A stretch of DNA of 64,000 nucleotides from NCBI RefSeq assembly GCF_004014855.1, contig NZ_CP034930.1, positions 1,674,001 to 1,738,000 on the forward strand, given 5' to 3'. Shown here piece by piece: positions 4,359-57,960 of the stretch (position 1 is the stretch's first letter; every line of letters begins with the position of its first letter). The notes beneath the pieces were generated by a model. That model saw only the letters and a list, made by a program, of their open reading frames with translations, ran no database searches and had not been told where the DNA came from. This DNA comes from Apibacter raozihei (lineage in GTDB: Bacteria; Bacteroidota; Bacteroidia; Flavobacteriales; Weeksellaceae). The position numbers were made by a program, and so were the translations under genes.

Positions 4359-4389
4359 AAAAAAACCGAGCTTACTGCTCGGTTTTTTT
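4359..4389 (+). terminator. Terminator between convergent purD and carbonic anhydrase genes
   Basis: A-rich arm ending CCGAGC (4359-4371) pairs with GCTCGG plus seven T (4377-4389), loop of five. A-run before and T-run after mean that it can work in both directions, as expected between converging genes. Confidence 0.9.
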
Positions 4390-4399
4390 ATTAAATATA

Positions 4400-5047
4400 T
4401 TATTCTGGGGAGTTATATATAATTTCATCGAAAAATTCAACCTCACCTGTTTTTACATTATAAAAACCACCGGTAATACCTATTTTACCCTGATCAACCA
4501 GTTCTTTTAGTATTGAGCTTTTCTCTAATATTTCATCAATACTGTGAATAACGTTTTCATGCGCAACTTTGTTAACATAGTCTTCATGTTCTTTATCATC
4601 ATCTGGATTATCAATTCCTACTTTTTCCATAGCCGGATGAATTTTATGTAACAAGCCGGTTAAGTGTCCCAATTCATAATGTTTACAGGCTCCGTTGATA
4701 GCACCGCAATGAGAATGCCCCAAAACCAGAATAAGCTTGGAACCTACAACCTTACATGCATATTCCAATGAGCCCAGAACGTCTGTATTAACAACATTTC
4801 CTGCATTTCTGATACTGAAAATATCTCCAATTCCCTGGTCAAATATGTGTTCAGTAGAAGTACGGCTATCCATACAGCTTACTATAACTGCAAACGGGTG
4901 CTGTTCCTCATTGGTTTCTTCTACCTGCTGCATTAAATTACGGTTAACTTTAAGATTGTTGACAAAACGGTAGTTGCCGTCTTTTAAATATTGTAATGCT
5001 TGATGAGGATCTATAGAGATTAAATTTTCTTTTGTATGTGCTTTCAT
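4400..5047 (-). CDS. can: Beta-class carbonic anhydrase, cytoplasmic
   Basis: Interconverts CO2 and bicarbonate. The 215-residue protein has the beta-class zinc site: Cys58 and the Asp60-Arg62 pair in SCMDSR, His111 and Cys114 in GHSHCGA. There is no signal peptide, so it should act in the cytoplasm. It lies 36 bases downstream of the SulP transporter on the same strand, a common bicarbonate uptake plus hydration arrangement. From HQALQYLKDGN onward it is nearly identical to the exported paralogue at 7359-8267, pointing to a recent duplication. Confidence 0.93.
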   Translation of the reverse strand: MKAHTKENLISIDPHQALQYLKDGNYRFVNNLKVNRNLMQQVEETNEEQHPFAVIVSCMDSRTSTEHIFDQGIGDIFSIRNAGNVVNTDVLGSLEYACKVVGSKLILVLGHSHCGAINGACKHYELGHLTGLLHKIHPAMEKVGIDNPDDDKEHEDYVNKVAHENVIHSIDEILEKSSILKELVDQGKIGITGGFYNVKTGEVEFFDEIIYNSPE

Positions 5048-5083
5048 ATATTTATTGTTTTATAAAGGTAGTTTAAATTTATA

Positions 5084-6691
5084 TTATTTGATTGTATCTA
5101 AATTGTCTATATTTTTATTTTCTAGTTTTACTGAACGGGTGTTGGCAACACTTAAGTTTACACCATCACCATTGTTAGGAATTTCGTAAACATCTTTAAA
5201 GTTAATAAGTTTTAAATTAATGTTTTTACGAGGTGCAGTTTCTGCCTTAAATTCACGTATCAATTCTAAAACGTCAAAATCTATATAAACTGTTTTTTCA
5301 GCATCAATAATTATGTTGGAATTATTTTTAATCCGGGATAAAGTTTTAATTATGGTTGATTTTTTTAAAAACGATATTTCCTCTGATAAGATAAGGTGAA
5401 TATATTTTTGGTTATCAACATGAGTTATATACATAGTATAACACGATTTCATGTTTCCTCTTAAAATAAAATAGACAGCTACCAGCATTCCTATTCCAAC
5501 ACCTTTAAGCAAATCTGTAAGTAAAATAGCCAATACAGTGATTACAAAAGGAATCCACTGGTGTTTACTTAAGCTGAAAACGTGTTTGAATAAGGCAGGA
5601 TTACATAATTTGTAACCGGTAACAACTAAAATCGCAGCCAGTGAAGCCAAAGGAATCATATTTAAAAATTTAGCTATAAATAATACTCCTAATAAAAGAA
5701 TAATTCCATGTACAATAGTGGTCGTTTTCGTTCGTCCACCGGCAACCAAACCTGCTTTTGATCTGACAATTACTGAAGTGATTGGAAGCCCCCCTATTAA
5801 TCCGCTTAATGAATTACCGATTCCCTGAGCAAAAAGCTCTCTGTTAGTAGGAGTCACCCGTCTTAATGGATCAATTTTATCTGTAGCTTCTATAGTTAAT
5901 AAAGTTTCAATGGATGCAACCATACCTATTGTCAATGCCAGTACCCAGATTTTAGGATTTGCTATTAAACCAAAATTAGGAAATAAAAATAATTGGGTAA
6001 AAGAATTAAAACTTTCTACAACCGGAAGCTGAACCAGTTCGCTTCCTTCAAAAGAAGTATTGGTTTTCTGGAATATGAAATAACTTACAAGACCTACAAT
6101 TACAGCTATTAAAGCTCCGGGAATTGTTTTTAAAATTTTAGGTTTATATTTATCCCAAAGTACCATACAGATTAAGGCCACAATTCCTGTACCTAAAGCT
6201 ATTTCGTTAACATGTTCAGAGACATCTGAAAGAATCCTCTGGTAAAACTGGAATCCTGTTTCTTCATCGGATAAAGCTTCAGGAAAACCCAGAAGAGTCG
6301 GAATGTTTTTCAATATGATGGTTATTCCGATTGCCGCAAGCATTCCTTCTATTACACTGGAAGGAAAATAATAGGCAATACCTCCTGCTTTTAATAAAGA
6401 AAGCCCAATCTGGAATAACCCGGCCAAAAATACGGCTAACAATACTCCGTTAATACCAATATCAGTAATCCCTGTAGCTACAATGGTTATTAATCCGGCA
6501 GCAGGGCCGCTGACACTTAATTGAGAACGGCTGATACAACCAATTACAATTCCTCCCAGTATACCTGAAATCATACCGGCAAATGGTGGCATTCCTGAAG
6601 AAAGAGCTATACCTAAACAAAGAGGAATGGCTACCAGTGATACAACTACTCCTGCTATTATATCATTTTTTAAATTAGGTTTAGAAGACAT
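5084..6691 (-). CDS. SulP-family anion transporter, probable bicarbonate uptake
   Basis: A 535-residue inner-membrane protein with about 10-12 hydrophobic segments, opening KNDIIAGVVVSLVAIPLCLGIALSSGMPP, the SulP start signature, and ending in a STAS domain (about residues 420-510, with KTVYIDFDVLELIREF). SulP proteins move sulfate, bicarbonate or other anions. Here two carbonic anhydrases flank it, so Na-dependent or proton-coupled bicarbonate import is the best inference; sulfate cannot be excluded, and no sulfate assimilation gene is adjacent. It likely forms an operon with the carbonic anhydrase 36 bases downstream and with the small gene upstream. Confidence 0.88.
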   Translation of the reverse strand: MSSKPNLKNDIIAGVVVSLVAIPLCLGIALSSGMPPFAGMISGILGGIVIGCISRSQLSVSGPAAGLITIVATGITDIGINGVLLAVFLAGLFQIGLSLLKAGGIAYYFPSSVIEGMLAAIGITIILKNIPTLLGFPEALSDEETGFQFYQRILSDVSEHVNEIALGTGIVALICMVLWDKYKPKILKTIPGALIAVIVGLVSYFIFQKTNTSFEGSELVQLPVVESFNSFTQLFLFPNFGLIANPKIWVLALTIGMVASIETLLTIEATDKIDPLRRVTPTNRELFAQGIGNSLSGLIGGLPITSVIVRSKAGLVAGGRTKTTTIVHGIILLLGVLFIAKFLNMIPLASLAAILVVTGYKLCNPALFKHVFSLSKHQWIPFVITVLAILLTDLLKGVGIGMLVAVYFILRGNMKSCYTMYITHVDNQKYIHLILSEEISFLKKSTIIKTLSRIKNNSNIIIDAEKTVYIDFDVLELIREFKAETAPRKNINLKLINFKDVYEIPNNGDGVNLSVANTRSVKLENKNIDNLDTIK

Positions 6692-18372: not shown

Positions 18373-18858
18373 ATGAAAAAGTTCATTTATTCTATAGTCG
18401 CTTTAGTTTTATCTACAGTTACATTTGCTGAAAATGTAAAAGATCAGGCTTTAAAAGCAGTAGAAAACCCTGAAATATCTGTTAAATCAGCTAAAATTCC
18501 TATGTATGTGCAAATTCTTGTAGGAGAGCATTTAGGTGGAGTGGTTAATTTGAAACGTATATCAAAAGGAGCTTCTATTTTAAAATTGTCAACATTTAAT
18601 GGTCTTAATGTAGAAATAGCACATAAAAACAACACTATAAAAAAAATTAAATCATCCAAAGAATCAGTACCTGTTCAATTACTAACCTATTTTCCCGGAG
18701 AAGTCAGTAATTTAATAACTTCACAATTCACCGGTTGGGAACTAACTGAAATTGCATCAAGTCAGAACGGATACGAAGTAGAATTAAAGAAATTAAAACA
18801 AAAAATTCATCTGAAGTTCGATTCCTCAGGTTTCTGTCATTATACGCAGTACAGATAA
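18373..18858 (+). CDS. Exported PepSY-like (DUF2874-like) protein
   Basis: From the ATG at 18373 this is 161 residues with a normal signal peptide (MKKFIYSIVALVLSTVTFAENV). An ATG six codons earlier (18355) would add MNCNTY in front and is less likely given the promoter position. The second half (VPVQLLTYFPGEVSNLITSQFTGWELTEI...YEVELKKLKQKIHLKFDSSGF) matches the pattern of PepSY-like DUF2874 domains, in which strands lead to a F-D-x-x-G end. Such proteins are periplasmic and of unknown role. The family call is from the pattern only. Confidence 0.6.
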   Translation: MKKFIYSIVALVLSTVTFAENVKDQALKAVENPEISVKSAKIPMYVQILVGEHLGGVVNLKRISKGASILKLSTFNGLNVEIAHKNNTIKKIKSSKESVPVQLLTYFPGEVSNLITSQFTGWELTEIASSQNGYEVELKKLKQKIHLKFDSSGFCHYTQYR

Positions 18859-18940
18859 TATATAAGCAGAGATATTGTTATATCAGAAATCTAAGTCACA
18901 TTATTTTTTAGTAGTTAATTTCTAATATTCTCATAAATAA

Positions 18941-21700
18941 TTGGTTAAATCAGATGTTATAAAAAAGTTTACTTTTCTGTTGTTTTTATTTTTACTAACA
19001 GAGCAGTTTGTCTTTGCAAAAAATTTACAGGAAATTCAGGTACCGGTTTCTAAAACCGGTTCAGATTCCTTAATTATAATCAACGGGCAACTTTTAGATA
19101 AAGAAACTGTGCTTCCGGTACGTAAAACAGCGAATATCCGTGTATATAATTATTCAGGAGATTTTATTAAAGAAACCAATACGGATAGTACAGGATTATT
19201 TAGTTTTAATTTAAAAAAAGGAGATTATTTAATTAAAGTTAAGTTAGACAATTACAAAGAATTTAATGGGAAATTGAAAGTAATTAAATTTAATGCAAAT
19301 AACTTATTTATAGCTTATCTCACCTCAAACAAAAGTCAAAAAGAAGAAAACTATGACTCAGAAAACGATTCGTCAGTTCTCATAGGAAACATTATAATAA
19401 CAGCAAAAAAATCTAAGATTATAATGAAAGGAGATACCATTCAGTATGACGCATCTCAATATAAAGTAAGGAAAGGCTCTCTTCTTCAGGAACTTTTAAG
19501 AAAAGTGCCGGGGCTCACCATAGATAAAAACGGTAATATTAAAGCTAACGGCAAACCGGTACATAAGATATTAATTGATGGAAGACAGTTTTTTGATAAT
19601 GACATCCATTTAGCGTTGACCAATTTACCTTCTGATATGGTGAAAAGTATAGAGCTTTATAAAGAATCTTCAGACTTATCTAAAATAACAGGAATAAAAG
19701 AAGGTGACGGAAATCAGGTTCTTAATCTTAATGTGAAAGAAGAGTATAAGAACAATCTTTTTGGAAATGTTTCAGCAGGATATGGAAGTGATAAGCATTA
19801 TAATTATAAAACCCTGCTTAACTATTTAGGAAAAACCACACAAATTTCTTTGTTAGGCGATGCAAATAATACTAATGGAAGTTTAGATGATATTGAGTCT
19901 TACTCTGATAATGGAGAAGGAATTATTTCCGAACGGACTATAGGATTAAATGGGACTTATGAAAATAAAAATAAATTAAAAGTTGAAAGCAATCTTCTTT
20001 ATAATGAAGAAATAAACCGGTTGACCAGTACCGAAAATACCCGGTATTTCTTATCAGACGAAGAAAGAACTTCGCATAACTTCTCCCTGGATAAACAAGA
20101 GCAAAAAAATACTTCTTTTGGAATTAATCTTAGTTCGGAATCAAAATCAAATTTAACATTGTTTATGCGCTTATCCGGAAATCATCAGGAAAAAGAAGCA
20201 AAGACTTTGTTTGAAAGTCAGACTTTCTCTAATTTAAATAACACTACCCGAGAAAATTCGGAATCTAAAATATCAGGAATAGCCAATGAACTTAGAGGTT
20301 CTCTTACACTTGGATGGAAGCTTAACGAAAAAGGCAGGACTTTAAGTCTTTCATTAGACGGTGATTATAATCACGAAAAAGAAGATGGAAATCAAAAATC
20401 ACAAACTTTTTATGATGCTGATAGCTCAGAAGTAGAAATGGATCAACAGCTTGTTTCCAAAAATCAGACATCAGGATATAATGCAACAATCTCTTATACA
20501 GAACCTATCGGAAAAAAAAGTATCTTTATGGCTTCCTATGCTTTTCAAAGAATGGATGTAGAAAGAAATTATAAGGCATTAAACAAAAATGATGAAGGAA
20601 TATATGCCAGACTTGATTCTGTTTATACAAGAGAATCAGAATCCTATTTCAACAAACAAAACATTCAGCTTAATTTTCAGACAGTATATGATAAATTTGA
20701 ATATGCTCTTGGAGTTAATGCAGAACCTACAGAATCTGGAAAAAAAATACACATAGGTAGCTATACGATTCAGAAAATGAATCAGAAAATAATTAACTAT
20801 TCCACCTTTGGAAGATTCCAATATAATCCTAAAAAAAACAAAGTTTTTAAATTCAACTATTTCGGCAATGTTACCCAGCCCGGATTTGAACAGATAACTA
20901 AAGATACCACAACTATTAGTCCAACAAACAAAAATTATGGAAATCCCGATCTCAAAGCTACATCATCCAATAATTTTGATTTTGTATATCAAAAAACAAA
21001 TCTAAATTCCGGAAGATTTTTCTCTATTATCGGGAATCTGAACTATATTTCCAATCAGATAGTAAGTTATACTTTTATAGACAAATTAGGTAATACGGCG
21101 AGTACATACAAAAATGTGAATGGTAATTGGGGAGGAAACCTGAATGGCAGCTATAATTTCCCTGTAAAACAAACGGACCTTACACTTGAATTCAGCTTGG
21201 GAAGTTCCTATCAGAGACAATTGGCATTTATGAATGACCAAAAAAACATTACAGATGACTATAGTGTTAATTCATCTATATCCATAGATTATAATCCCGG
21301 AGACTTATTATTAAATCTTACCGGTTTTTATCAAAATAAAAGAACAGAAAATAATCTGTCGTCAGTTTCAAACCTTAAAATTACTTCCTGGGGAATTACC
21401 AATCTCGTACAATGGGATCTTCCATTTGACATACAGTTTCAAAACTATATTAGCTATCTTTACGACCATGGATATTCATCCAATGTTCAAAAAGAAAAAA
21501 TACTTTGGAATATGGCTATTTCAAAATCATTTTTAAAAGGAGGAAAAGGTGAATTAAGACTACAGCTTTACGATATTCTTAATAAAAGAAACAATATTAT
21601 GCGCGTAATTAACGGAAATCAGGTTTCAGATATACAGAGTCAGGTTTTAAAACGCTATTTTTTACTAAGTTTTATTTACAGGCTCGGTATCTCAGGCTAA
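18941..21700 (+). CDS. Outer-membrane beta-barrel protein, TonB-receptor-like with carboxypeptidase-regulatory domain
   Basis: A 919-residue outer-membrane protein: signal peptide (hydrophobic FTFLLFLFLLTEQFVFA), a carboxypeptidase-regulatory-like beta sandwich at about 45-125 (INGQLLDKETVLPVRKTANIRVYNYSGDFIKETNTDSTGLFSFNLKKGDY), a plug-like region at about 150-270 (LLQELLRKVPGLTIDKNGNIKANGKPVHKILIDGRQFF), then a long run of barrel strands. This is the TonB-dependent-receptor-like group with an OMP_b-brl_3-type barrel, common in Bacteroidetes; no TonB box is obvious. The start is TTG, directly after an in-frame TAA; an ATG nearby is out of frame. The substrate is unknown. Confidence 0.82.
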   Translation: MVKSDVIKKFTFLLFLFLLTEQFVFAKNLQEIQVPVSKTGSDSLIIINGQLLDKETVLPVRKTANIRVYNYSGDFIKETNTDSTGLFSFNLKKGDYLIKVKLDNYKEFNGKLKVIKFNANNLFIAYLTSNKSQKEENYDSENDSSVLIGNIIITAKKSKIIMKGDTIQYDASQYKVRKGSLLQELLRKVPGLTIDKNGNIKANGKPVHKILIDGRQFFDNDIHLALTNLPSDMVKSIELYKESSDLSKITGIKEGDGNQVLNLNVKEEYKNNLFGNVSAGYGSDKHYNYKTLLNYLGKTTQISLLGDANNTNGSLDDIESYSDNGEGIISERTIGLNGTYENKNKLKVESNLLYNEEINRLTSTENTRYFLSDEERTSHNFSLDKQEQKNTSFGINLSSESKSNLTLFMRLSGNHQEKEAKTLFESQTFSNLNNTTRENSESKISGIANELRGSLTLGWKLNEKGRTLSLSLDGDYNHEKEDGNQKSQTFYDADSSEVEMDQQLVSKNQTSGYNATISYTEPIGKKSIFMASYAFQRMDVERNYKALNKNDEGIYARLDSVYTRESESYFNKQNIQLNFQTVYDKFEYALGVNAEPTESGKKIHIGSYTIQKMNQKIINYSTFGRFQYNPKKNKVFKFNYFGNVTQPGFEQITKDTTTISPTNKNYGNPDLKATSSNNFDFVYQKTNLNSGRFFSIIGNLNYISNQIVSYTFIDKLGNTASTYKNVNGNWGGNLNGSYNFPVKQTDLTLEFSLGSSYQRQLAFMNDQKNITDDYSVNSSISIDYNPGDLLLNLTGFYQNKRTENNLSSVSNLKITSWGITNLVQWDLPFDIQFQNYISYLYDHGYSSNVQKEKILWNMAISKSFLKGGKGELRLQLYDILNKRNNIMRVINGNQVSDIQSQVLKRYFLLSFIYRLGISG

Positions 21701-44577: not shown

Positions 44578-45666
44578 ATGAATTATAACAGAAAGAGATC
44601 TTTGAGCAAATTTTTTTCCAAGCTTGATATTCGGGTTCTTTTAGTCTTTATAATATTGATACTCATGGCTTTCTTTTTCTTTTTCTTTCAATACTATAGA
44701 CATATCGATTGCAGACAAGTTTACTTCACAATAGAGGCTGAAAGAAAGCAGGTAGGTGAAATTATTGGATTTAAAGATCAAACTCCTAATGCAAGAAGCT
44801 GGAAATGGGATTTTGGTGATAAAACTGAGAAAAGATTTGAAAAAGATCCATTGCATAAATATGAAAAGCCAGGTGTATATACGATAACTCTAGAGGTTAA
44901 CGGGAGTTGTGTTTTTCAAAGAATTTTAGAAATCAGAGATTTAGGTAGGTTGGTAGATTCTACAAAGATACCTAAAATTATAGCTCCTACAGTAGTTGAA
45001 GTTGGTCAGAACATTGAGTTTTATTACAAATACAGAGGGGAAGCTTTTTCTTGGGAATGGAGTTTTGGAGAAACAGGCCAATTGGATAATACATCAGAAT
45101 TTCCGGTATATAGTTATAGCACTCCTGGAATAAAAAGAGTTACTTTTGTTATCAATGGAGATGTAACTCATATATCAAGTAAAGATATATTTGTAAAACC
45201 AAGAAAACTCATAAATACTAAAATTAAAGACACTGCTTATACAGTAGAAAAAGCAGCAGAACTTTTTACACTACCTAAGGGGACACCGCAAAAAGATCCT
45301 ATGGAAGAATTCATGAGATATATACCAGGGGTACCACTGGAAACGCCTGTACAGAAGAAAATTAGAGAGATTGAAGAAAATAAAGCTCCCGATATATCTG
45401 AAAATCAGTTTCAATTACTTTTACTTGATGTGGCTAAACAAAGTAAAACCAAAGAGGATTTTTCTAAATATACCTGTGGTAATTATGAATTTCCGGTAAT
45501 TAAAAACAATAAAACCATAATGCGTTTTTCTGAATTCTGTGAGAACATTCAAAATAAGAAAATCAAAATAGAATCGTTAAGACTTACCAGAAATAATAAA
45601 AACTGTATTGAAGGGTTTACAATTAAATACAAAGTAAAAAAAGGATTTATCTGGATTTATGACTAA
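44578..45666 (+). CDS. T6SS-iii-linked membrane protein with two PKD domains (TssP candidate)
   Basis: The 362-residue protein begins with a cytoplasmic basic segment, one transmembrane helix (IRVLLVFIILILMAFFFFFF, about 18-38), then periplasmic parts: PKD domain 1 (GFKDQTPNARSWKWDFGDKTEKRF...YTITLEVNG, about 60-120), PKD domain 2 (AFSWEWSFGETG...GIKRVTFVING, about 140-210), and a C-terminal region with a small domain (about 275-362). It is the first gene of the operon, 36 bases before clpV. T6SS-iii lacks TssJLM and uses TssN, O, P, Q and R as envelope parts; a TssP role is an inference from layout, not from a match. Confidence 0.75.
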   Translation: MNYNRKRSLSKFFSKLDIRVLLVFIILILMAFFFFFFQYYRHIDCRQVYFTIEAERKQVGEIIGFKDQTPNARSWKWDFGDKTEKRFEKDPLHKYEKPGVYTITLEVNGSCVFQRILEIRDLGRLVDSTKIPKIIAPTVVEVGQNIEFYYKYRGEAFSWEWSFGETGQLDNTSEFPVYSYSTPGIKRVTFVINGDVTHISSKDIFVKPRKLINTKIKDTAYTVEKAAELFTLPKGTPQKDPMEEFMRYIPGVPLETPVQKKIREIEENKAPDISENQFQLLLLDVAKQSKTKEDFSKYTCGNYEFPVIKNNKTIMRFSEFCENIQNKKIKIESLRLTRNNKNCIEGFTIKYKVKKGFIWIYD

Positions 45667-51379: not shown

Positions 51380-51814
51380 ATGTACGGGATATATTATAAT
51401 ACGCCAATTAATTTTAAAGACATTATTGAAAAAAAAGATATAGAAAAAACTAATCTTGAAAGTTCAATAGCAAGATACATTAACCTGCTGGTCACCTCTT
51501 CTTTCGGAGAATGTAAATTTGATGAAACGTATGGCTGTAAAATATGGGAAATGGATTTTGATTTATTATCTGATTCAAATACATTACGAGATAGAATTAA
51601 AAAAGATATAAAAGAAACTATTAAAATGCATGAAAGCAGATTGGAGTTATCCGAAGTTGAAATTTCAGTAGGAATAGACCAATCTTTAAATCATAATAAT
51701 GCATTACGAATGAAAAAGAAGATATCAATGAAAATATTGGGAGCTGTAAAAAAAACCAATCGTCCGTTTAGATTTCATGGACATTTTTTTGTAGGACCAT
51801 TATCTTATATTTAA
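51380..51814 (+). CDS. tssE: T6SS baseplate protein TssE (gp25-like)
   Basis: The 144-residue gp25-like protein: ESSIARYINLLVTSSFGECKFDETYGCKIWEMDFDLLSD has the family's E-F-G-C-type turn and W, and helix-strand order fits T4 gp25. It would join the sheath end to the baseplate wedge of TssF, TssG and TssK. It is 17 bases after the 237-residue unknown and 4 before tssF. Confidence 0.88.
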   Translation: MYGIYYNTPINFKDIIEKKDIEKTNLESSIARYINLLVTSSFGECKFDETYGCKIWEMDFDLLSDSNTLRDRIKKDIKETIKMHESRLELSEVEISVGIDQSLNHNNALRMKKKISMKILGAVKKTNRPFRFHGHFFVGPLSYI

Positions 51815-51818
51815 TACT

Positions 51819-53669
51819 ATGGATACACAAGAAAGAATAAAAGATAGAATACTCAGAAGAGCTGCCCAGACATGGGGGTATACAGACAGTGAACTGGAAA
51901 CTTCTTTCGATCCTATTGTAGCTTTATTACTTGAAGCTTGTTCTTCAGAACTTGAAAAGATTTCATCAGAGCTGAACAACTCAAGATCAAGAATAATTGA
52001 AAGGCTTTTGGAAATAATGTCTCCCGAAAATAATTCAGGAATTATTCCCGCACGATCAATTATGCATCTCAAACCCGTAGAAAATAACTTTACCATATCA
52101 CTGGAACATCAGTTTGTTTGCAAAAAAACAATACAAAATATATACGATCCACTTAGGCCAACCATTAAAGATATATTTTTTGGAACAACTTTACCCTTTA
52201 CACTAACCGAGGTTTCTTTGGAATACATGGCTTTTGGAAATACTTTTTACTCATTAAAAAGAGTAATTCACAAAGACCAGTTATCAAAAAGCAATCAGTT
52301 TTTAAAACCAGGTACATTATGGTTAGGACTTAAGTGCCCTCAGGAAATTGAGAGTATAAATAAACTAATGTTTTTTACAGATATCAGAAACGTATCACAG
52401 AGAGACATATTTTATAATTATTTAAAACAAGCTAAATTTTTTATAAAAGACAAAGAAATATCATTTAAAGAAGGATATAATGTTGAAAATTATTCAATTG
52501 ATATAGATGCTATAGTTAATAAAAACTATAACAAAATCAATCAGTTGTATACAGATGTTAATAACTTTTATGCTGATAAGTTTTTTCATTTTACAGAAGA
52601 TATTCTTATTGATGAGAATAGTTTTAGCATACCGGAAGAATTACTTGAAGCATTTGGTTCAGATAATTCTAAAATAAATGAATTAACTGATGTGTTGTGG
52701 ATTAAAGTACAATTTCCTGAAGTTGTTATCAATGATATACTGGAAAATGTCATGTTTTATATAAACTCTATTCCTGTTATAAACAAGCAGATTTTAAGTC
52801 AGACTCAGTCGATAGATTCTTTTATCAATTATATTCCTTTAACCACAGACGATATATTTCTTGATTTAGGTAGTATATCTGATTCCAGAGGATACCATTA
52901 TCACATAAAAGAATTCTCAGAAGGAAACCTTGATATCGGAGATGCTACCCTGAGACACACAGGGGTTGTTAGATTTGATGAAAGAAATGCTTCAGAGCTA
53001 ATACAATATCTCATTGAACTGCTTAAAGACGAAAGTGCGTCATTTACGGTAATTGGGGGAGATTTTATTAAAGGGACTATAAGGGAAATTAATCAACTAA
53101 TTGCAACATTAGAACAGCATATAAAAGAGAGGAAATTTACAAAATCCAGTTTCCCTTACGTTATAATAAGACCCAAAGCAGCTGCTACAAAAAGTGATAA
53201 TGATATGTTCACAGTATCTTATTGGGTAACCAGTGGAGAAGATGCAAATGATTTAAAAGTAGGAACGCGATTAGATGGAGTTAATACCAGTGATTTTTCT
53301 CAAAATTCAATTATGCTAATAAATACTTCCGTAGGAGGAAAGTCTAGATTAAATACAAGAGAAAAAATTACTTCATATAGAGAAGCTTTACTAACAAGAG
53401 GAAGAGTAGTTACATTTGCTGATATTAAGACTTTTTGTCTCAATCATTTTAAATTTACAATTTCTGGAATTGAAATTAGAAAAGGAACCAAAATAGACTC
53501 TTCAACTAACAAAGGATTTGTTAGAACAATAGACATTATTTTAGAAAAAAATGTAAATGCCGAATATCAGGTTTCAGATTTTGAATGGCAGTATTTATGC
53601 GATAATTTATTGCATAAGTTGGATCATGTTTCATCGAATGTTTATCCTTATAGATTAATTGTAAAATGA
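51819..53669 (+). CDS. tssF: T6SS baseplate protein TssF
   Basis: The 616-residue VasA/TssF protein. Family signatures: AQTWGYTDSELETSFDPIVALLLEACSSELEKI near the start and LNTREKITSYREALLTRGRVVTFADIKTFCLNHF near the C-terminus. Forms the wedge with TssG. Its stop overlaps the start of the following lipoprotein gene by four bases (ATGA), so the lipoprotein is coupled to baseplate expression. Confidence 0.9.
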   Translation: MDTQERIKDRILRRAAQTWGYTDSELETSFDPIVALLLEACSSELEKISSELNNSRSRIIERLLEIMSPENNSGIIPARSIMHLKPVENNFTISLEHQFVCKKTIQNIYDPLRPTIKDIFFGTTLPFTLTEVSLEYMAFGNTFYSLKRVIHKDQLSKSNQFLKPGTLWLGLKCPQEIESINKLMFFTDIRNVSQRDIFYNYLKQAKFFIKDKEISFKEGYNVENYSIDIDAIVNKNYNKINQLYTDVNNFYADKFFHFTEDILIDENSFSIPEELLEAFGSDNSKINELTDVLWIKVQFPEVVINDILENVMFYINSIPVINKQILSQTQSIDSFINYIPLTTDDIFLDLGSISDSRGYHYHIKEFSEGNLDIGDATLRHTGVVRFDERNASELIQYLIELLKDESASFTVIGGDFIKGTIREINQLIATLEQHIKERKFTKSSFPYVIIRPKAAATKSDNDMFTVSYWVTSGEDANDLKVGTRLDGVNTSDFSQNSIMLINTSVGGKSRLNTREKITSYREALLTRGRVVTFADIKTFCLNHFKFTISGIEIRKGTKIDSSTNKGFVRTIDIILEKNVNAEYQVSDFEWQYLCDNLLHKLDHVSSNVYPYRLIVK

Positions 53670-54319
53670 AAAAAAATATCGTAGCAGCACTCATAATAAT
53701 GCTTTTTCTAGTATTAGCGTGTAAAAGTAAATATTATAGGGAAGTTCCTTACAAATTAGTCTATAGTCAACAAGAAATTGATAATAAATTTCATATTAAA
53801 ACCCGTACATTACCCATCTTGGATACTTTGGATGTAGATGAAGACACGTTGACAGACAGAGAAATATATCTTAAAGAAAAATATGCCATTGTATTAGGAA
53901 TAAAGCCAAAAGAATTGAAAAACTATAAATTTTATGATTTTATAGATCAATGGATAGGCACTCCATATGCAAAAGTAGGGTTTACCGCAGACAGTTTGAA
54001 TATAGCAGCATTTATAAGTGCTTTATATCAATATACATATAAAAGAAAATTGCCTACAACACCCTTAGGTATTTTCAAATCTAATGAAATCAGCCTTTTC
54101 ACAGGTAGAAAATTTTTAAAAGAAGGAGATTTGCTCTTTTTCAGATATGCTAAAGATATGCCGGTGGGTGATATTGGTATCTATCTACGAAATAACAGGA
54201 TATTATATAGTACTAAAAAAAATGGGCTGATGATAGGTGATTTTAATGAGAATTACTATCAATTAAGATATGTAAGTGCAGGTAGGCTTATTATAGATCA
54301 AGAGACCGAACCTAAGTAA
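53666..54319 (+). CDS. NlpC/P60-like lipoprotein lacking catalytic residues (TssQ candidate)
   Basis: A 217-residue lipoprotein (lipobox VLAC, Cys19). Residues about 90-210 follow the NlpC/P60 plan: FIDQWIGTPYAKVGFTADSLNIAAFISALYQ...KLPTTPLGIF...EGDLLFFRYAKDMPVGDIGIYLRNNRILYS...YVSAGRLI. The catalytic Cys of the DCSGF motif is Ile113, the His of HVGIY is Asp169 and the later His is Tyr181, so no peptidase activity is expected; a peptidoglycan-binding or scaffold role is likely. It is coupled to tssF and lies 9 bases before tssG. The T6SS-iii set includes a lipoprotein, TssQ; equivalence is inferred. Confidence 0.8.
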   Translation: MKKNIVAALIIMLFLVLACKSKYYREVPYKLVYSQQEIDNKFHIKTRTLPILDTLDVDEDTLTDREIYLKEKYAIVLGIKPKELKNYKFYDFIDQWIGTPYAKVGFTADSLNIAAFISALYQYTYKRKLPTTPLGIFKSNEISLFTGRKFLKEGDLLFFRYAKDMPVGDIGIYLRNNRILYSTKKNGLMIGDFNENYYQLRYVSAGRLIIDQETEPK

Positions 54320-54328
54320 TTATAGAAT

Positions 54329-55276
54329 ATGGAAATTACTGAAATAAATACAAAGTTAGAGCAGATTAAGAATCGAATTAACTCTTTAAATTATGATTTA
54401 AAGGCCGAGGTAATTATTTCAGAAATAATGAACAAAATTGACCATGAAGATCAAACCTTTTTAGTTGATCACAAAGGACAGTTTAAAAGGCCATTTAGAA
54501 AAGATGTGCTAGATGCAGAATTAGTAGATTTTAATTACGATTCAACACAATTTGTCAAAATAAACTTATCAAGAGACGGAATTTACGATACACTTCCGGA
54601 AGGATTTTTTCATGCTCCAAGAGAAGACCGGTTGAAAAAAACGGTCGACGAAATGACCAAGGAGTATAAAGTTCATAAAAAAGAAGAAGAATATGCACGA
54701 AAATTTTTTCTTCCTTTCGAAAATGAATTTTTCCTTAAAACTATAGAAAGAGAAAACCTGGAAAAAGATATCCTTTTAGAATTAAATGGATCTCGCCCGC
54801 TAGATTTTTTCTATGAATTTTGGGGAATTGATAAAGATTTACCGGAGATTTTAGTTTCCAAACTAATACGTATTTTGCCCTATACACATCAGATAGTTGG
54901 AAATTTAGAATTAACAGTGCACTGTTTAAGTTATCTGTTGGAAGAACAGGTTCATATAGCAGAACAAACCTATAAAGAGCAATCAAGTTCTGAGCAGGAA
55001 ATAAGTCTGGGAGATTGTAGATTAGGATTAAATATGATTTCAGGAAGTGCGTATATGGATTATTCATTATATCTCGAATTCAAGATAGGCCCACTGAAAA
55101 AATCATCTTTTCTTGAATATATACATCAGGGAAAATTAAAAAAATTTGTTGAACTATTTTATGAATACTTCCTGCCTATGGAAGTAGATGTAAAGACAAC
55201 TATACTACTGGATGCAGAAGCTGAAGCATTTAGTTTAAAAGAAATATCAATTTTAGGTATAACAACAAGAATATGA
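54329..55276 (+). CDS. tssG: T6SS baseplate protein TssG
   Basis: The 315-residue TssG (VasB-like) partner of TssF. The family shows low conservation; supporting stretches are RPLDFFYEFWGIDKDLPEILVSKLIRILPYTHQIVGN and the C-terminal LKKFVELFYEYFLPMEVDVKTTILLD, with the gene between tssF and tssK-region genes. Its stop overlaps tssN by four bases. Confidence 0.8.
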   Translation: MEITEINTKLEQIKNRINSLNYDLKAEVIISEIMNKIDHEDQTFLVDHKGQFKRPFRKDVLDAELVDFNYDSTQFVKINLSRDGIYDTLPEGFFHAPREDRLKKTVDEMTKEYKVHKKEEEYARKFFLPFENEFFLKTIERENLEKDILLELNGSRPLDFFYEFWGIDKDLPEILVSKLIRILPYTHQIVGNLELTVHCLSYLLEEQVHIAEQTYKEQSSSEQEISLGDCRLGLNMISGSAYMDYSLYLEFKIGPLKKSSFLEYIHQGKLKKFVELFYEYFLPMEVDVKTTILLDAEAEAFSLKEISILGITTRI

Positions 55277-56250
55277 GATTCAAGACCTTTTTTAAAGATT
55301 TAATAGATCCATCAATTATTGTCGGAATAGTAATTATTTTTGCAGTTACAATTATTCTCACTGTTTTTTTTAGCTCTAAAGTAGAAGGATTTAAGCAAAA
55401 ATATAAAGGAAAATTTATTACATACATAATAATTGTATTACTTGTAACAGCACTAACCATTTTTATTGGTTCTTCAGAAGTTTTCAATAATCAGATATTC
55501 AGTATATTCATTTTTTACCAGATAGTCTTTTTTATATTAGGTATTATACATAGCTATGTATATAGAAACTACTTTGAAAAATTTGAAAAAGAATCTCCAT
55601 GGATTGAAATGTTTTTCAGTTTTATTGTAACCATTTATATTTTGATTCCTTTTCTCTTAGTATATACTATTGTTAAAGGCAATACCTATGTTTACAGCAT
55701 GATGTTTTCTTCCTTGGTATTTATGATACCTACAGTGATTTATTTAACTTTTGAGGCATCCATAGCAATTCCTCCCAAAATTTACAAAACTTGGCTGTTT
55801 CCCGAAGAACACGCATATCCTGATCCACCGGATAGTGAATATAGAGATATGCTGGTAGTTACCTTTGTGTTTCATAAAGAACCCGATTCGGAAGTAAGAA
55901 CAGAATTTAGGGCTAAAGCTCCTATTCGTATGGATTTCGGTAGATTATTTTATCACTTTGTAAATGATTACAATTTACGTAATCCGGATGCCCCTATTAA
56001 TTTAATGGATAAAAATGGAGAAAAGCAACATTGGGTATTTTATTTGAAAAACAAAAGTTTCGGATTTGCTAAATTTATCAGACCAGATTATCCGCTGTAC
56101 ATGAACTCTATAGAAGAAAACAGTGTTATAATCTGTCGTAGGACACCCCCGTTACTAAATTCTGAAGATGAACTGGATTATGATATGAAAGATAGTAAGA
56201 TTGAAGAAAATCCTAATATAGATGAAAAACAAAAAAAAGATAATTTTTAA
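55273..56250 (+). CDS. tssN: T6SS-iii transmembrane protein TssN
   Basis: A 325-residue protein with about five transmembrane helices in the first 170 residues (SIIVGIVIIFAVTIILTVFF, FITYIIIVLLVTALTIFIG, FSIFIFYQIVFFILGII, FFSFIVTIYILIPFLLVY, SSLVFMIPTVIYLTF), then a soluble cytoplasmic domain (about 175-325: MLVVTFVFHKEPDSEVRTEFRAKAPIRMDFGRLFYHFVNDYN) and an acidic tail. TssN is specific to the Bacteroidetes T6SS, which lacks TssJLM. It would help form the membrane complex to which TssK docks. Confidence 0.85.
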   Translation: MRFKTFFKDLIDPSIIVGIVIIFAVTIILTVFFSSKVEGFKQKYKGKFITYIIIVLLVTALTIFIGSSEVFNNQIFSIFIFYQIVFFILGIIHSYVYRNYFEKFEKESPWIEMFFSFIVTIYILIPFLLVYTIVKGNTYVYSMMFSSLVFMIPTVIYLTFEASIAIPPKIYKTWLFPEEHAYPDPPDSEYRDMLVVTFVFHKEPDSEVRTEFRAKAPIRMDFGRLFYHFVNDYNLRNPDAPINLMDKNGEKQHWVFYLKNKSFGFAKFIRPDYPLYMNSIEENSVIICRRTPPLLNSEDELDYDMKDSKIEENPNIDEKQKKDNF

Positions 56251-56272: not shown

Positions 56273-57433
56273 ATGTTAGAAAAATTAAATTATTTTCCGG
56301 TGAATTGGATAGATGGGATGAAAATTAATAAATCTCATTTTATTGCAATGCAGGATAACTTTGTAGATATGGCCAGAGATGCCATTGGTAGCCACGTAAC
56401 TCCAATAAGTTATGGCTTGTTACCTGTACAGAATACAATGGAGTCTATAAAAATATCCTTGGTAATAGACAATCACAAATTACTAAGAGTTAAAATAGAA
56501 GAATGTCATGCGGTTACTCCTAACGGAGCTAGAATAGAAATAACCCCGATGAATAATTCCATAGATATGCAGATGCCATATCCTGAAGCTGTATATAATC
56601 TGGATGAAGCGCAAAATGTTGTTTTGCTTGCTAATATTGTTGTAAATCCTTTTGAGAAAGTTCCCTTTGGAGAATTGGATCCGGAAGAAAATCCTCCAAG
56701 ATATCCATATTTGGTACCAACATATAAGTTACATTTAGTACAGGAAGGGCAGCTTTCACAACAATCTTCATATGCAGGCTACCAGCTCACTGTCGGTAAA
56801 ATAATAATAAATAAAGAAGAAACCAGTTTACAGCCGGGTTATATTCCTCCCTGCACTACGACCAATAGTCATAAAGAACTTATTGATATGCACACGGGAA
56901 TTGATAAGTTTATGGGACAGCTTGAACTGTATGCAGTACAAATTGCGCAGAAAATTAACCGTAAGCATCAAACTAACGAATTAGCGGTTATGGTACTTAA
57001 ATTATCCGATTTAATAATTACCTATCTAGGAAACGAAATTAATTCATTACGATGGTTTGGTTTATACACCAGTCCAGCCTTTATGTTTGACAAAATTGTT
57101 CGTTTAGGAAGGATTATGAAAAATTTTGTAGATGCCAAATCCGGAGCAGGTAAAGAAGAATTATTAAATTATTTGGCAGAATGGTGCGGTTTATCACAAG
57201 GAGACTTTGAAGTATTGTTTACAGATTTAGTAAACGTTGGGTATAATCATTCGCAAATTGATAAAACGATGAGTCAGGTGAGTATTTTCATGAGAACAAT
57301 TGACCAACTGTTCTCTGCATTAAATAAACTTGACTTTATCGGAAGAAGAAATGATACCGGAATATTTGTAAAAGAGAGAATGGAAAATGATCCGATAGAA
57401 AAAACTAAAAGAAGCAGATTTTTTGATGATTAA
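56273..57433 (+). CDS. tssK: T6SS baseplate protein TssK
   Basis: The 386-residue TssK-like protein, with FPVNWIDGMKINKSHFIAMQDNFVDMARDAIG at the start (family W-x-x-G-M-x-L-x-x-x-H-F pattern) and a receptor-binding-like C-terminal half (GRIMKNFVDAKSGAGKEELLNYLAEWCGLSQGDFE). TssK joins the baseplate to the membrane complex. Shorter than proteobacterial TssK (about 445), as is usual for subtype iii. Confidence 0.9.
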   Translation: MLEKLNYFPVNWIDGMKINKSHFIAMQDNFVDMARDAIGSHVTPISYGLLPVQNTMESIKISLVIDNHKLLRVKIEECHAVTPNGARIEITPMNNSIDMQMPYPEAVYNLDEAQNVVLLANIVVNPFEKVPFGELDPEENPPRYPYLVPTYKLHLVQEGQLSQQSSYAGYQLTVGKIIINKEETSLQPGYIPPCTTTNSHKELIDMHTGIDKFMGQLELYAVQIAQKINRKHQTNELAVMVLKLSDLIITYLGNEINSLRWFGLYTSPAFMFDKIVRLGRIMKNFVDAKSGAGKEELLNYLAEWCGLSQGDFEVLFTDLVNVGYNHSQIDKTMSQVSIFMRTIDQLFSALNKLDFIGRRNDTGIFVKERMENDPIEKTKRSRFFDD

Positions 57434-57444
57434 AAAATAACATT

Positions 57445-57960
57445 ATGGAAGTATTAAATAAAAAAGAAAGATTAATTTCATTTCTACTCTTTATTTCACT
57501 GTTTTTAATAACTGTAGTTATCATTGTAGTATCAGTATTTTTTAATTTTCATTTGCCTTGGAGGGAAAACGAAGAACTAAAAAAAGAAAATGCCTCTATG
57601 ATTAACGAATTTAGATTTCAGTCCAAATTTGAAGAGCAGATGGAATTACTAAAAAAATATATTGATTCCATTGATATGCCTAATCAGGATACATATTACT
57701 ATCAGCAGAAATCAGTCGATATGGTGATCAAAATGGAACAAAATATACCCAGTCAGGATAGCGTGAGAAGAGGGCTCTTGTATAAGAATTTTTTGCTTAC
57801 CAGCCGCTCCCTTATTGATTCTAAAAAGACTATTAAAACCTATGGCAAAAGTAAAGCGGAAATTGATACTCTACTTGCTAAAGTTGAGGCATATAGAAAG
57901 CAAATTGAAATTATGAAAAGGGATTTGGATATATGCAGAATGCTAAATAGAAAAGATTAA
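57445..57960 (+). CDS. tssO: T6SS-iii transmembrane protein TssO
   Basis: A 171-residue protein with one N-terminal transmembrane helix (LISFLLFISLFLITVVIIVVSVFF), then a long periplasmic coiled coil (ENEELKKENASMINEFRFQSKFEEQMELLKKYIDS... and KSKAEIDTLLAKVEAYRKQIEIMKRDL). This layout and its place after tssK match TssO. It lies 11 bases after tssK and ends 124 bases before hcp1, whose own promoter follows. Confidence 0.82.
   Translation: MEVLNKKERLISFLLFISLFLITVVIIVVSVFFNFHLPWRENEELKKENASMINEFRFQSKFEEQMELLKKYIDSIDMPNQDTYYYQQKSVDMVIKMEQNIPSQDSVRRGLLYKNFLLTSRSLIDSKKTIKTYGKSKAEIDTLLAKVEAYRKQIEIMKRDLDICRMLNRKD

Follow-up and report, generated by a model that had tools for sequence, protein, structure and literature searches.

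The lipoprotein gene and its locus

A 64,000-nucleotide stretch of the Apibacter raozihei genome (assembly GCF_004014855.1, contig NZ_CP034930.1, positions 1,674,001 to 1,738,000; hereafter the window) carries genes of a type VI secretion system (T6SS) of subtype iii (T6SSiii), among which lies an open reading frame (ORF) for a 217-residue lipoprotein with a degenerate NlpC/P60 domain, referred to here as LIP (53666..54319; coordinates without a locus label are those of the window, and all features so placed are on the + strand). The gene overlaps tssF (51819..53669; Pfam) by four bases and is followed by tssG (54329..55276; Pfam). The lipobox of the predicted protein reads LVLAC19, an envelope signal whose Cys19 (53720..53722) is the sole cysteine in the protein. 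The NlpC/P60 domain spans residues ~87-209 (53924..54292) and scores 36 bits against NLPC_P60 (PF00877), for which the curated cut-off is 23; the fold is supported in addition by an AlphaFold2 (AF2) predicted structure and by a match to MepS. Alignment with homologues places Ile113 (54002..54004) at the site of the catalytic Cys, with Asp169 (54170..54172) at the catalytic His site and Tyr181 (54206..54208) at the third catalytic site, and the domain as a whole is devoid of both Cys and His. An earlier note on this DNA had described the protein as a lipoprotein of NlpC/P60 layout, catalytically dead and coupled to tssF within a run of T6SS genes. That description is borne out: the predicted structure, which could have revealed some other fold, is of the NlpC/P60 type, and the residues, lipobox and overlapping ORFs are as described.

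MepS/Spr, a housekeeping NlpC/P60 endopeptidase and lipoprotein of Escherichia coli, has a Cys-His-His triad, whereas the window LIP lacks all three residues and is linked to a T6SS. Retention of the fold with loss of the triad is a feature that LIP shares with RipD, a non-catalytic, peptidoglycan-binding NlpC/P60 pseudoenzyme of Mycobacterium, although RipD is not known to belong to a secretion system.

Linkage to T6SSiii loci and stepwise loss of catalytic residues

Homologues were drawn from 80 named loci, these being the best 80 of 332 confirmed matches in a profile search for LIP, from 60 genome regions, mostly around tssN, and from a further 10 regions around LIP-profile matches and eight around weaker ones. 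Neighbours were counted as the next recognised T6SS gene, with unassigned ORFs in between being skipped. Among named homologues the nearest four belong to Apibacter, and orthologues with 60-71% identity are present in four of eight genomes of the same genus. Among 85 distinct homologues, the first recognised T6SS gene to follow LIP on its own strand is tssG in 79 cases (at a distance of no more than 218 bases in 77), and in 64 the neighbour on the upstream side is tssP. The latter gene, which encodes PKD domains (44578..45666 in the window; Pfam), is the usual other neighbour outside Apibacter, adjacency to tssF having been seen in Apibacter loci only. One or both of tssG and tssP adjoin LIP in 82 of the 85, the exceptions being L033, L149 and L166. 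An order-wide scan of 395 genomes placed all 19 matches of more than 200 bits inside T6SS loci, which rules out, for matches of this strength, the idea that LIP is a general Bacteroidota protein merely situated near T6SS genes. Weaker matches (105-144 bits) had no T6SS gene in 14 of 15 fetched places, in stretches of 5-20 kb, with the exception of L182, and those without T6SS genes nearby all have Cys and His intact. LIP genes thus belong to T6SSiii loci, a linkage to be expected of a membrane-complex component.

The NlpC/P60 fold is common to several amidase effectors, and LIP might on that account be assigned to the same kind of T6SS effectors or immunity proteins. This is extremely improbable given the lipoprotein signal, the position in the core of the locus by tssG or tssP, the level of identity between same-genus genomes noted above and the disappearance of the catalytic residues.

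Two loci showed unusual arrangements beside LIP. In genome G072 there are two adjacent tssP-like genes (L041:5756-7921, - strand), while in G721 the ORFs of tssP and of tssH are both split in two next to a LIP gene that is intact (L178:10422-13930, + strand), reflecting either real decay or sequencing error.

Catalytic states were tabulated for 86 T6SS-linked rows, in which L179 duplicates L095. Cys113 and His169 are both kept in 22 rows, where site 181 is occupied by G, N, S or A in 20 and by His in two, such that L163 (adjoining tssP) and L182 (adjoining tssG) are Cys-His-His proteins. Cys in combination with Asp169 and Ala181 accounts for 44 rows. The Cys site is occupied by Ala, Thr or Met in 12 rows of the Chryseobacterium/Capnocytophaga type, and by Ile or Met in eight (the window copy, four from Apibacter, L041, and two metagenome-assembled genomes labelled Bernardetia and Saprospiraceae). 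The question raised in the earlier note, of whether the catalytic positions are always lost in T6SSiii homologues, is thus answered in the negative. Since intact Cys-His-His homologues do occur at T6SS loci, a finding that the note had named as counting against its reading, the family is not inherently dead, and catalysis has been lost in the lineage of the window copy.

The loss has been stepwise. In both LIP trees, rooted on intact housekeeping proteins, the His to Asp change occurs once, on a long branch with support of 100/100, and Cys changes three or four times. A tree of TssG plus TssN from 56 of the loci gives four Cys changes and one His change, and rejects a single Cys loss (p-AU, from the approximately unbiased test, of 1.45e-6, or 6e-4 for the Chryseobacterium/Capnocytophaga set alone) on the assumption that LIP has been inherited together with TssG and TssN. 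Asp169, which defines a group of 62 rows, is never altered again in the sample once gained, and the residue may therefore have a use of its own. Separately, the Cys-His-His member of 367 residues at L182 (L182:9589-10692, - strand) lies outside the main clade of LIP proteins on a long branch, and perhaps represents a second, independent recruitment to the T6SS.

Two further genes accompany the Asp169 form. Among loci that cover tssO, tssE and tssF, X50057 (50057..50647) is present in 24 of 24 of the Asp169 type and in none of 13 of the His169 type; the corresponding counts for X50649 (50649..51362; 237 residues) are 21 of 24 and none of 13. An unfiltered search at E values of up to 10, in which the label 'noLIP' takes in duplicate LIP loci too, returned no score above 8 bits for either gene in the His169 group. 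Co-occurrence with Asp169 amounts to one event on the tree. X50057 has an N-terminal signal, four Cys that are invariant across 26 rows and no Pfam family, and looks like a new periplasmic part of the T6SSiii. X50649 matches no Pfam or NCBIfam family and usually lies immediately before tssE (gp25-like, Pfam; 51380..51814 in the window).

TssR and the two T6SSiii branches

Bongiovanni et al. 2024 (PMC10781749) describe the T6SSiii membrane complex as TssNQOPR, with TssR as its sole lipoprotein, report that in 31% of systems tssR is missing or could not be identified, and call the crossing of the wall by the T6SSiii unexplained. A study of bee-gut bacteria regarded the T6SS of Apibacter as complete, although it has neither tssQ nor tssR (PMC8125069). 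In the window, tssN (55273..56250; Pfam, 245 bits) is followed by a gene named tssK from its position and size (56273..57433; no Pfam match, homologues adjoining tssN) and by tssO (57445..57960; Pfam).

The distribution of TssR, detected as PF17643, is largely the reverse of that of LIP. TssR was found in none of 19 genomes in which LIP-type systems alone were seen, a count tempered by the genome-wide TssN search having covered nine of these 19, and in all four genomes with both system types. It was found also in 31 of 36 TssN-bearing genomes without LIP, in 35 of which (G064 being the other) the T6SS regions were read; a 15-bit match in G002 (E 0.04, with internal stops) fell below the cut-off and was not counted. 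The contrast between none of 19 and 31 of 36 is associated with a Fisher p value of 1.5e-10, uncorrected for kinship. In a tree of 123 TssN proteins, one side comprises 34 rows, all without LIP and all from TssR-bearing genomes, while on the other side LIP is present in 83 of 89 rows. The presence of LIP changes twice on this tree. LIP therefore marks one of two large T6SSiii branches and excludes TssR.

The two lipoproteins show no detectable homology. Comparison by hhalign gave a probability of 1% for homology between LIP and TssR, and the window protein matches NLPC_P60 only, which rules out LIP as a fragment of TssR or as its first domain. TssR of the Bacteroides fragilis TssNQOPR complex, a lipoprotein of the same type of secretion system, has barrel, second, VWA and C-terminal domains, none of which is matched by the window LIP.

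Five LIP-less genomes likewise lack a TssR match. One of these, G396, may have no T6SS at all, since its TssN match is of only 37 bits and no other T6SS gene lies in the stretch. A lipoprotein scan of 10 proteins from three loci of these genomes gave one lead, in L074, a T6SSiii locus without TssR or LIP in which a lipoprotein that carries an SLT transglycosylase domain (4359-5465, - strand) and a YkuD L,D-transpeptidase (18657-19169, - strand) are encoded beside tss genes.

Constraint and the probable role of LIP

Purifying selection on LIP has persisted after catalytic loss, and no relaxation is visible. The ratio of non-synonymous to synonymous substitution rates (dN/dS) lies in the range 0.03-0.19 for 14 of the 16 LIP pairs, the other two yielding no value, against 0.02-0.14 for TssG and 0.04-0.12 for TssN from the same loci where computable. 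Values of dS are below 1 in eight LIP pairs, including Cys-less pairs with dN/dS of 0.056 and 0.074, and near saturation in the others. In a Flavobacterium davisii locus (L155:10076-11416) the LIP and tssG reading frames are both split, with other tss genes alongside. This broken copy, together with the repeated loss of catalytic residues, might be taken to indicate that LIP is a decaying passenger, dispensable for the T6SS. However, dN/dS is alike in Cys-less and Cys-bearing pairs and many positions are invariant across the Asp169 group, rendering this explanation very improbable.

The data point instead to LIP as being, probably, a lipid-anchored envelope component of the TssR-less T6SSiii branch, a former endopeptidase turned structural. 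A MepS-like NlpC/P60 endopeptidase with Cys and His still intact would have entered the T6SS locus, where its presumed function was to open up the wall to the membrane complex. On the way to Flavobacterium, Chryseobacterium, Capnocytophaga and Apibacter, the first catalytic His gave way to Asp, only once, after which Cys was lost three to four times, with the remaining non-catalytic protein being kept by purifying selection, most likely as a periplasmic anchor or scaffold that links the lipid anchor with TssP, TssO and TssN; wall opening would then fall to another enzyme. The early role has parallels in the T6SSi, in which TagX of Acinetobacter (PMC5061870) and MltE (PMC10781749) are wall hydrolases tied to T6SS assembly, as is proposed here for the Cys-His forms of LIP, although they are other enzymes, active and from another phylum.

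LIP might alternatively act by way of the wall, as a RipD-like pseudoenzyme whose dead cleft grips muropeptides and so tethers the T6SS, but the residues of its binding site differ from those of RipD. The Asp immediately before the catalytic Cys (Asp112), which in RipA contacts gamma-D-Glu (PMC6628586), is lost in all eight Apibacter-type rows (the window copy and its seven nearest kin), as is the Ser that follows, and the first Gly of the YxxGG motif is kept in just two of the eight. Loss of the contacting Asp makes a grip on murein doubtful for the window LIP and favours protein-protein scaffolding, and a RipD-like role is unlikely. The suggestion in the earlier note that LIP holds or guides the envelope complex accordingly fares well with regard to T6SS linkage, exclusion of TssR and purifying selection, but is weakened in so far as holding peptidoglycan is concerned.

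A regulatory role, in which LIP would draw a housekeeping wall hydrolase to the site of the T6SS or sequester it there, is distinctly improbable. The genome does encode three intact NlpC/P60 proteins, and there are structures of MepS, the nearest solved homologue of LIP, bound to the lipoprotein NlpI, as judged from entry titles (8xup, 8xud). However, the intact NlpC/P60 genes are remote from the T6SS locus and no partner enzyme was seen to be coupled to LIP.

Several observations weigh against the structural reading. TssR is unmatched also in the five LIP-less genomes described above, and the single deep division on the TssN tree means that mutual exclusion of LIP and TssR does not represent many replacements. 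LIP, a single domain of ~215 residues, can hardly stand in for the whole of TssR (~790 residues, four Pfam domains), being far smaller and without homology to it. Although the lipobox column contains Cys at a frequency of 0.97 in the Asp169 group and 0.91 in the His169 group, the strict lipobox pattern is found in 61 of 85 homologues, most of the others still having Cys there, and the Flavobacterium homologues L121 and L126, without the lipobox Cys, may be soluble in the periplasm. On the LIP tree taken by itself, the case for more than one loss of Cys is not significant (p-AU 0.10 and 0.19), and the branch of the His change on the TssG plus TssN tree has a support of 93, unstarred. Finally, Cys is kept despite loss of His in 42 of 85 distinct homologues, which a purely structural reading leaves unexplained, and the third His is absent from 20 of the 22 Cys and His rows, so that activity of the Cys-His forms is deduced from their residues only.

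A broader proposal, to which we would give slightly less than an even chance, is that the T6SSiii has two membrane-complex architectures, one with TssR and the other with an NlpC/P60 lipoprotein, and that in the latter the system's own wall-opening enzyme later became a structural part while the Cys-rich, putatively periplasmic partner X50057 was gained. Among the papers listed by open-access literature searches, none was seen to link an NlpC/P60 or C40 protein to the T6SSiii, and the term 'NlpC' is absent from the accessible text of PMC10781749, PMC8125069, PMC4714493 and PMC5395568. The LIP family is a concrete candidate for two gaps in knowledge of the T6SSiii, and since its living members span the range from Cys-His-His to fully dead, both the job of the wall enzyme and its dispensability are directly testable. 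If the proposed history is true, the family would represent a traceable conversion of enzyme to scaffold within a contractile secretion system.
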